Positions 57,855 through 59,585 of a stretch of DNA of 64,000 nt are shown here, one piece after another. Under the pieces are notes generated by a model. That model ran no database searches. It saw only the letters and a list, made by a program, of their open reading frames with translations, and was not told where the DNA came from. A program made the position numbers and the translations under genes. Source of the stretch: an uncultured Bacteroidota bacterium (GTDB lineage: Bacteria; Bacteroidota; Bacteroidia; Flavobacteriales; Flavobacteriaceae); assembly GCA_902512755.1 (NCBI GenBank), contig CABXKB010000002.1, positions 50,737-114,736 of the forward strand, given 5' to 3'. The stretch's first letter is position 1; every line of letters starts with the position of its first letter.

Positions 57855-57958
57855 GTTGGGAGAATTGATTTAAACGCAATATAAAAAATCAAATAGTTTA
57901 AAAGCATTTTTTTTAGGGCTTGTTAAAATTTTTAAAACTATTACACAAGAAGTTTAAA

Positions 57959-58312
57959 ATGAAAAAAGATTCAATAACTTTACTAATATTACAGTATAAT
58001 TTAAAATTTTTGAATATGAACCAAAAACTTTTATCGATAGAACTTTTAGAAGAAAAGATTATTGGTTTATTAAATAAATTAAAAGAAAACCATCTCACTA
58101 TAGTTAAACAAGAAGATCAGCAAATCAATCTTATTAAGAGAAATAAATATTTAGAAGACAAAGTATTGGTTTTACAAAACGAAAATAAATCTCTTAAAAT
58201 TGCAAATAACTTACTTGGAAGTAGTGAGGGAAAATCTCAGACTAAAACAAAGATAAATAGTCTCATTAAGGATGTTGATTATTGTATTCATCAACTTTCA
58301 GAAACGAATTAA
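57959..58312 (+). CDS. Small coiled-coil protein upstream of zapA (possible start at 58016)
   Basis: Heptad-rich sequence with C-terminal KINSLIKDVDYCIHQLSE; immediately precedes zapA. Confidence 0.72.
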   Translation: MKKDSITLLILQYNLKFLNMNQKLLSIELLEEKIIGLLNKLKENHLTIVKQEDQQINLIKRNKYLEDKVLVLQNENKSLKIANNLLGSSEGKSQTKTKINSLIKDVDYCIHQLSETN

Positions 58313-58316
58313 TCAT

Positions 58317-58613
58317 ATGAATAATTTATTAAAAATTAAGTTAACTATTGCAAACAGAGTATACCCCTTATCGGTCGCACCTGATCAAGAGGCTTCTCTT
58401 CGTGCATCAGCTAAGAAGATAGAAGCGACAATTCTACAGCTTGAAAAAAACTATGCTGTTCGCGATAAGCAAGATGTTTTGGCAATGTGTTCACTTCAAT
58501 ATGCAGCACAATTAGAAAAATTCAATAATCAAAGCAATACTTCTTCTCCAATTTCTGAAGATAAATTAGAAGAATTGATAGACATGATTGATATTCACTT
58601 GGCTGCATACTAA
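58317..58613 (+). CDS. zapA: Cell division protein ZapA
   Basis: LKIKLTIANRVYPLSVAPDQEASLRASAKKIEATILQLEKNYAVRDKQDVLAMCSLQYA. Confidence 0.9.
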   Translation: MNNLLKIKLTIANRVYPLSVAPDQEASLRASAKKIEATILQLEKNYAVRDKQDVLAMCSLQYAAQLEKFNNQSNTSSPISEDKLEELIDMIDIHLAAY

Positions 58614-58634
58614 GTTTTAAAGTAATTTATACAG

Positions 58635-58804
58635 CATTACCTGTATTAGTATTTTTTTGATAAACTCAACGAGCTTTTAATTATGAGAGGTGAGTTTCAA
58701 TTGTAAAAGCAAGCTGTCTTGTAACAGACCCTTGATCAATTGTGTAGCCTCAAACTTGATTTTTAGGAGTTTATACAAAAGGCACGCTAATACAGGTTTT
58801 TTAT
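58635..58804 (+). ncRNA. ssrS: 6S RNA (6S-Flavo-like), immediately downstream of zapA
   Basis: Non-coding gap; terminal stem ACCTGTATTAG (58639-58649) / CTAATACAGGT (58787-58797) is a perfect 11-bp inverted repeat; second stem TAAACTC (58661-58667) / GAGTTTA (58767-58773); followed by T-run; zapA-adjacent like 6S RNAs. Confidence 0.82.
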
Positions 58805-58835
58805 AAAAAATAAGAAATATTAGAAAGTACCTTTT

Positions 58836-59585
58836 CTATATATTCATTAATATTACATATAACAATCCTGCAGCAGTTCCACCAAGTAGTGGACCTATAA
58901 TTGGAACCCAGCTATAACTCCAGTCAGCATTTTTATTTTTTCGAGGTAAAAAAGAATATACCAAACGTGGGCCAAAATCTCTAGCTGGATTAATGGCGTA
59001 TCCTGTGGTACCTCCTAAGGCAATTCCAATAAGCCATACCAATATTCCAACAGGCAATGCATCTAGTGAACCTAAACCAAAGTTTTGAACTTCTGAGCCA
59101 CTAATTTCAATATTAGGTCCCACAATAAACAAGACTCCAAATACAAGCATAAAAGTACCAATGGCCTCACTAAAAAAATTATTTTTTAAATTTCGTATTG
59201 CTGGGCCTGTGCAAAAAGTACTCCTAACTACTTCTTCATCTTTAGTAAGACGGTAGTGATCAATATATGTGATGTAAGCCAACCAGCTACCAAGCATAGC
59301 TCCAAGAAGTTGCGCCCCAAAATATCCAGGAACTATAGACCACGAAAACTTTCCTGCTATAGCTAATCCCAATGTAACAGCTGGGTTAAGGTGCCCCCCA
59401 CTAGATTGAGATGTTATAAACACACTAACAAATACAGCAAAACCCCAAGCTGCTGTTACTAAAACCCATGGAGTTTGACCTTCTGCTATAGTTTTTTTTA
59501 GATTTACATTTGCAACTACTCCTGCTCCAAATAAGAGTAGGGTTGCGGTACCAATAAATTCTGCCAAATATGGATTTAATATCAT
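58836..59585 (-). CDS. glpF: Glycerol uptake facilitator / MIP-family channel
   Basis: NPA motifs HLNPAVTLG and INPARDFGPR; glp cluster context. Confidence 0.94.
   Translation of the reverse strand: MILNPYLAEFIGTATLLLFGAGVVANVNLKKTIAEGQTPWVLVTAAWGFAVFVSVFITSQSSGGHLNPAVTLGLAIAGKFSWSIVPGYFGAQLLGAMLGSWLAYITYIDHYRLTKDEEVVRSTFCTGPAIRNLKNNFFSEAIGTFMLVFGVLFIVGPNIEISGSEVQNFGLGSLDALPVGILVWLIGIALGGTTGYAINPARDFGPRLVYSFLPRKNKNADWSYSWVPIIGPLLGGTAAGLLYVILMNI

Follow-up and report, generated by a model that had tools for sequence, protein, structure and literature searches.

The 64,000-nt stretch of DNA analysed here (the window) almost certainly carries, in the gap between zapA and glpF, a gene for 6S RNA of the 6S-Flavo family from whose downstream side the RNase Y gene (rny) has been deleted, as judged from sequence comparisons. 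In resting bacteria, this small RNA keeps RNA polymerase blocked. There is very little doubt that the copy in the window is a previously unannotated member of an already known family; the more interesting result, and one unexpected to a specialist, is the repeated loss of RNase Y.

A 6S RNA gene between zapA and glpF

The 6S RNA gene is without annotation and occupies the gap between the stop codon of zapA (58613) and the stop side of glpF (58836). The Rfam 6S-Flavo model (RF01685) gave the sole above-cut-off Rfam match across the 64-kb window, with an alignment that covers model positions 1–108 in full and is not truncated, and the RF01685 search found one 6S-Flavo copy in the assembly. An extended model (R2) scored 154.8 bits at positions 58633–58810, the window locus itself being among the 39 diverse loci from which R2 was built. 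Both matches bear out the identity and the 6S-Flavo assignment that had been proposed from the letters alone. Exact 24-base matches to the 5′ part of the RNA were confined to metagenome and single-cell genomes labelled Flavobacteriaceae, Flavobacteriales or Bacteroidetes, bins labelled MS024-2A among them, and judging by these labels the bearer is a marine flavobacterium of the MS024-2A lineage. The minimum free energy on the 6S strand is −45 kcal/mol, compared with −32.4 ± 3.6 kcal/mol for shuffled sequences (z −3.5; 0 of 200 shuffles as low). The features of the locus are as follows.

58317–58613, + strand: zapA (Pfam PF05164, E 7.8e-17)
58639–58802 (approximate), + strand: full-length 6S-Flavo RNA gene; predicted transcript, with ends placed from the closing stem and the T-run
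58639–58649, + strand: closing stem P1, 5′ arm ACCTGTATTAG; 11 pairs, none broken in 30 sequences of the genus
58653–58667, + strand: stem P2, 5′ strand TTTTTTG-A-TAAACTC; pairing in 99.5% of cells in the genus alignment
58664–58772, + strand: core matched by Rfam RF01685 (107.3 bits, curated cut-off 85; E 5e-18 for the window)
58668–58686, + strand: central bubble, 5′ side; conserved, no supported pairing, with the predicted pRNA start opposite C58670
58687–58751, + strand: apical arm (GAGGT/GCCTC, ATTG/CAAT, AAG/CTT and CTGT/ACAG), with compensatory changes in helices 4, 5 and 7
58752–58766, + strand: central bubble, 3′ side AAACTTGATTTTTAG; expected site of a −10-like element, by analogy with known 6S RNAs (PMC8876501)
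58767–58781, + strand: stem P2, 3′ strand GAGTTTA-T-ACAAAAG; pairing from the genus alignment
58787–58797, + strand: closing stem P1, 3′ arm CTAATACAGGT; same basis as the 5′ arm
58797–58802, + strand: T-run, read directly, forming an intrinsic terminator with the closing stem
58803–58835, no strand: rny deletion site, 33 nt from the 6S T-run to the glpF stop codon; relatives carry rny (∼1.55 kb)
58836–59585, − strand: glpF, MIP/aquaglyceroporin family, convergent (Pfam PF00230, E 1.9e-47)

The preliminary description had listed the helical elements of this RNA at coordinates that prove correct within a few bases. Its 11-bp terminal stem is read directly as P1, and the inner stem formed by TAAACTC (58661–58667) and GAGTTTA (58767–58773) and lengthened by TTTG/CAAA, the GAGG (58687–58690)/CCTC (58748–58751) and CTGT (58714–58717)/ACAG (58724–58727) pairings and the terminal T-run are likewise present. 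In a structure alignment of 30 homologues from the genus, the RNAalifold consensus comprised 47 pairs with 98.7% of the cells paired, and 10 pairs (47 cells) were altered on both sides. None of 500 shuffles of these 30 sequences matched the observed percentage of pairing, the double-change counts or the covariation score, and sliding the partner columns by 1–3 positions lowered the pairing to 31–46%. The structure is not a product of chance, because it combines an RF01685 match above the cut-off with covariation among the 30 homologues. Helix 3, the sole helix predicted within the central bubble, has some broken pairs and zero covariation in the same sequences. The general features of 6S RNAs are present, namely a closing stem joining the two ends, a large central bubble between two helical arms, and an irregular apical arm.

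Cross-family covariation was counted on P1 only, because the full-length multi-family alignment (A2) was poor in the middle. Six of eight P1 pairs were doubly changed across families, and all were paired (100%) in 28 distinct arm pairs, a percentage that is biased because the arms had been selected for being able to pair and rows with arms that could not be brought into register were dropped. A fairer test of P1 is the swapped-arm control, in which arms from other families paired with their own partners at a mean of −23.8 kcal/mol, compared with −14.4 kcal/mol when swapped between loci and −9.5 kcal/mol when shuffled; a T-run also lies 3′ of the closing stem in the loci used for this comparison. 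P1 is kept and covaries outside the Rfam model, and the full RNA is therefore predicted to span ∼58639–58802.

RF01685 gave a match in 146 of the 298 genomes searched in the order; just 37 of these passed the cut-off of 85 bits, and the other 109 go unreported. The sub-cut-off matches include 19 loci of other families (38–67 bits), and such weak matches are regarded as genuine because zapA lies directly upstream of the 6S gene in all 79 loci of the order that were read closely, these 19 among them. The extended model found 8 further loci (63–95 bits) in genomes in which RF01685 gave no match; all 8 lie immediately after zapA, between zapA and rny, and none was recovered by RF01685 at its cut-off. 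The orthologues at the zapA–rny site that RF01685 missed come from genomes of six families. The gap in 6S annotation across the order is wide, and a model that includes the closing stem reaches further families. On its other side, zapA is preceded by a short conserved ORF in 78 of the 79 loci, the exception being a contig end. In the window, this ORF (57920–58312, + strand) has no match in Pfam or NCBIfam and possibly encodes a ZapB-like coiled-coil partner.

It is extremely unlikely that the element is a mere strong Rho-independent terminator, or a structure of the zapA 3′ UTR, with no role of its own. The closing stem and T-run are indeed terminator-shaped, but the interior is conserved beyond what a terminator needs, TAAACTCAAC and GGAGTTT being close to invariant across families; moreover, the inner helices covary and the RF01685 model spans the interior only. 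The spacer from zapA is just 25 nt, and no clear Bacteroidetes promoter (TTTG...TAnnTTTG) was recognised upstream of the 6S gene, where scattered near-matches only were found; against this, the 6S RNA of a relative, Flavobacterium psychrophilum, is expressed, as detected by RNA-seq (PMC9723704). Three extra matches of the extended model elsewhere (∼30 bits), which lack zapA, proved to be ordinary terminators and lend that explanation some further colour. The predicted 6S transcript may arise either from its own promoter or by processing from the zapA transcript.

Deletion of rny and its repeated loss in the genus

The preliminary description named rny as the gene that follows zapA and 6S RNA in many flavobacteria, and suggested that the convergent glpF found here could mark a rearrangement. 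That order holds in all 49 loci outside the genus, where rny (RNase Y, TIGR03319) directly follows the 6S gene. Among the 38 genomes of the genus, 19 carry rny above the family cut-off, with convergent glpF just beyond, 3–19 nt past the point where the match to the rny profile stops. This comparison of gene order downstream of zapA indicates that rny is ancestral and that glpF lay beyond it, and the ancestral order in the genus is accordingly read as zapA–6S–rny–glpF (convergent). RNase Y is absent from 13 of the 38 assemblies, including the present one, in both protein and profile searches, and glpF abuts the 6S gene; in five other genomes of the genus, neither rny nor glpF was assembled. One genome (G029) has an rny pseudogene between the 6S gene and glpF (L143, 330–870), in which the start and the C-terminal end are recognisable, many stops are present and the bulk of the middle is missing; this is an rny loss under way. 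The RNase Y matches of 20–25 bits that rny-less genomes give were discounted, since they come from the HD motif (profile positions 331–366) of another protein of ∼690 residues, which is also present in rny-bearing genomes.

Absence of rny from an assembly that is only 55% complete is weak evidence by itself, and for this reason the argument for its deletion rests on the contiguous 6S–glpF junction and on the relatives. Convergent glpF thus does adjoin the 6S gene, as had been described, but not through a rearrangement: it already lay beyond rny, and it stands beside the 6S gene now because rny was deleted, a loss that brought it up to the 6S gene. The opposite course of events, in which the glp genes were inserted or translocated beside the 6S gene and rny was relocated, would agree with the absence of glpF from the 6S-adjacent flank in the examined loci outside the genus. 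We give it next to no credence, since glpF of the genus is already found within 3–19 nt of the rny profile match, neither of two different queries finds rny anywhere in the 13 genomes, and a pseudogene has been left at the site in G029.

In a tree of glpF, glpD and glpK, the rny-less genomes form four clades nested among rny-bearing genomes, plus G029. A tree of RNase E/G, the gene for which lies elsewhere, gives the same clades, with five changes by parsimony. The two trees carry no direction of change; the direction comes from outgroup synteny and from the pseudogene. The scars measure 29–30, 52–53, 59–64 and 82–88 nt, depending on the clade, and some of the rny deletions reach almost to the 6S T-run, ending only a few bases away, but none enters it. 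These sequence comparisons show that rny has been lost in the genus repeatedly, in four clades plus the pseudogene lineage, with the 6S gene and its terminator left intact each time. That one loss was merely inherited, or passed on through recombination at this locus, is very improbable: some deep branches of the glpFDK tree are weak (53–77%), but in both trees each of the four loss clades is nested together with genomes that have rny, a single loss clade is rejected in the RNase E/G tree (p-AU 1.4e-4, lnL difference 69.8), and the scar lengths vary between clades. Genomes that have rny and genomes that lack it give similar 6S scores, so the 6S gene has remained under selection. Of the 13 rny-loss genomes, 11 still carry RNase E/G, the two without a match being the present 55%-complete assembly and G028.

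In Flavobacteriaceae at large, 392 of 400 genomes score above the RNase Y cut-off. Besides the window genome, six other misses were listed, in genomes of 1.2–2.2 Mb, and two of these six, from other genera, keep zapA–6S with rny gone (L176 in G456 and L177 in G378). At L176, glpF is gone too, and the 6S gene faces genes that resemble those beyond glpK in the window. Four near-complete small Flavobacteriaceae genomes (G473, G556, G631 and G677) have neither RNase Y nor a 6S match with RF01685 or the extended model, which may reflect either an assembly gap or loss of both.

We found no published report of this rny loss in a search that covered few subscription papers. Close relatives with and without RNase Y, a core enzyme of RNA decay, make it possible to test what the enzyme does, how far RNase E/G can replace it and whether it has any link with 6S RNA. 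It is conceivable, although we consider it unlikely, that the near-universal zapA–6S–rny order reflects a functional coupling of RNase Y and 6S RNA, for example if the 6S terminator set rny expression or RNase Y turned over 6S:pRNA, and that the rny deletions are rewirings and not simple losses. If so, rny deletions in small marine genomes would rewire the control of both polymerase and RNA decay.

Predicted pRNA template and mode of action

TAAACTCAAC was found in 63 of the 79 loci, and its AAC (58668–58670) in all 79. Because this sequence sits at the expected template site, with AAC in the bubble and TAAACTC in P2, a pRNA beginning GUUGAGUUUA is predicted. The putative template comprises the 5′ strand of P2 plus AAC, and the start opposite C58670 is placed by analogy with the 6S RNAs of E. 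coli and B. subtilis. By inspection of the 6S RNA, no clear TAnnTTTG box or TTTG, as promoter-like −10 and −35 elements, was found at the expected positions, and no clear −7-like box was seen on the 3′ side of the bubble.

Known 6S RNAs mimic an open promoter and hold sigma–RNA polymerase until a pRNA made from the 5′ side of the bubble opens the adjacent helix and brings about release (PMC8876501). By homology, the rod in the window would imitate an open promoter, bind RNA polymerase with the primary sigma factor and keep the enzyme inactive as growth slows. When nutrients return, the polymerase would copy the 5′ side of the central bubble from opposite C58670 into a pRNA predicted as 5′-GUUGAGUUUAUCAAA, and this synthesis would open P2 and free the polymerase. 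The closing stem and T-run would also terminate the 6S transcript itself. Transcription, polymerase binding and pRNA synthesis are thus expected of this RNA by analogy with its better-known counterparts, and this reading draws support from relatives, namely the expressed 6S RNA of F. psychrophilum (PMC9723704) and the 6S RNA with pRNAs in Bacteroides (PMC7366714).

Comparison with known 6S RNAs

Along the whole 108-position model, the RNA in the window shares the core and apical arm of 6S-Flavo RF01685 (Weinberg et al. 2010, PMC2864571), whereas the Rfam model lacks the closing stem and the outer part of P2, both of which are conserved and covary here and across the order. The 6S RNA of Bacteroides thetaiotaomicron, in the same phylum, was detected together with two classes of pRNA by dRNA-seq (PMC7366714); this species lies outside Flavobacteriales, and its RNA is likened to the present one by description, not by sequence.

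Canonical 6S RNAs (E. coli ssrS and B. subtilis 6S-1; PMC8876501) form the same kind of rod, in which a closing stem leads to a central bubble and then to an apical arm, but their sequences are too diverged, no other Rfam family reporting the window RNA above its cut-off, and Bacteroidetes differ in sigma factor and promoter consensus (PMC7366714). The zapA neighbour is common to both, since zapA likewise adjoins ssrS in beta- and gamma-proteobacteria (PMC7641849), whereas the ancestral downstream gene here is rny and not ygfA or EVE genes.
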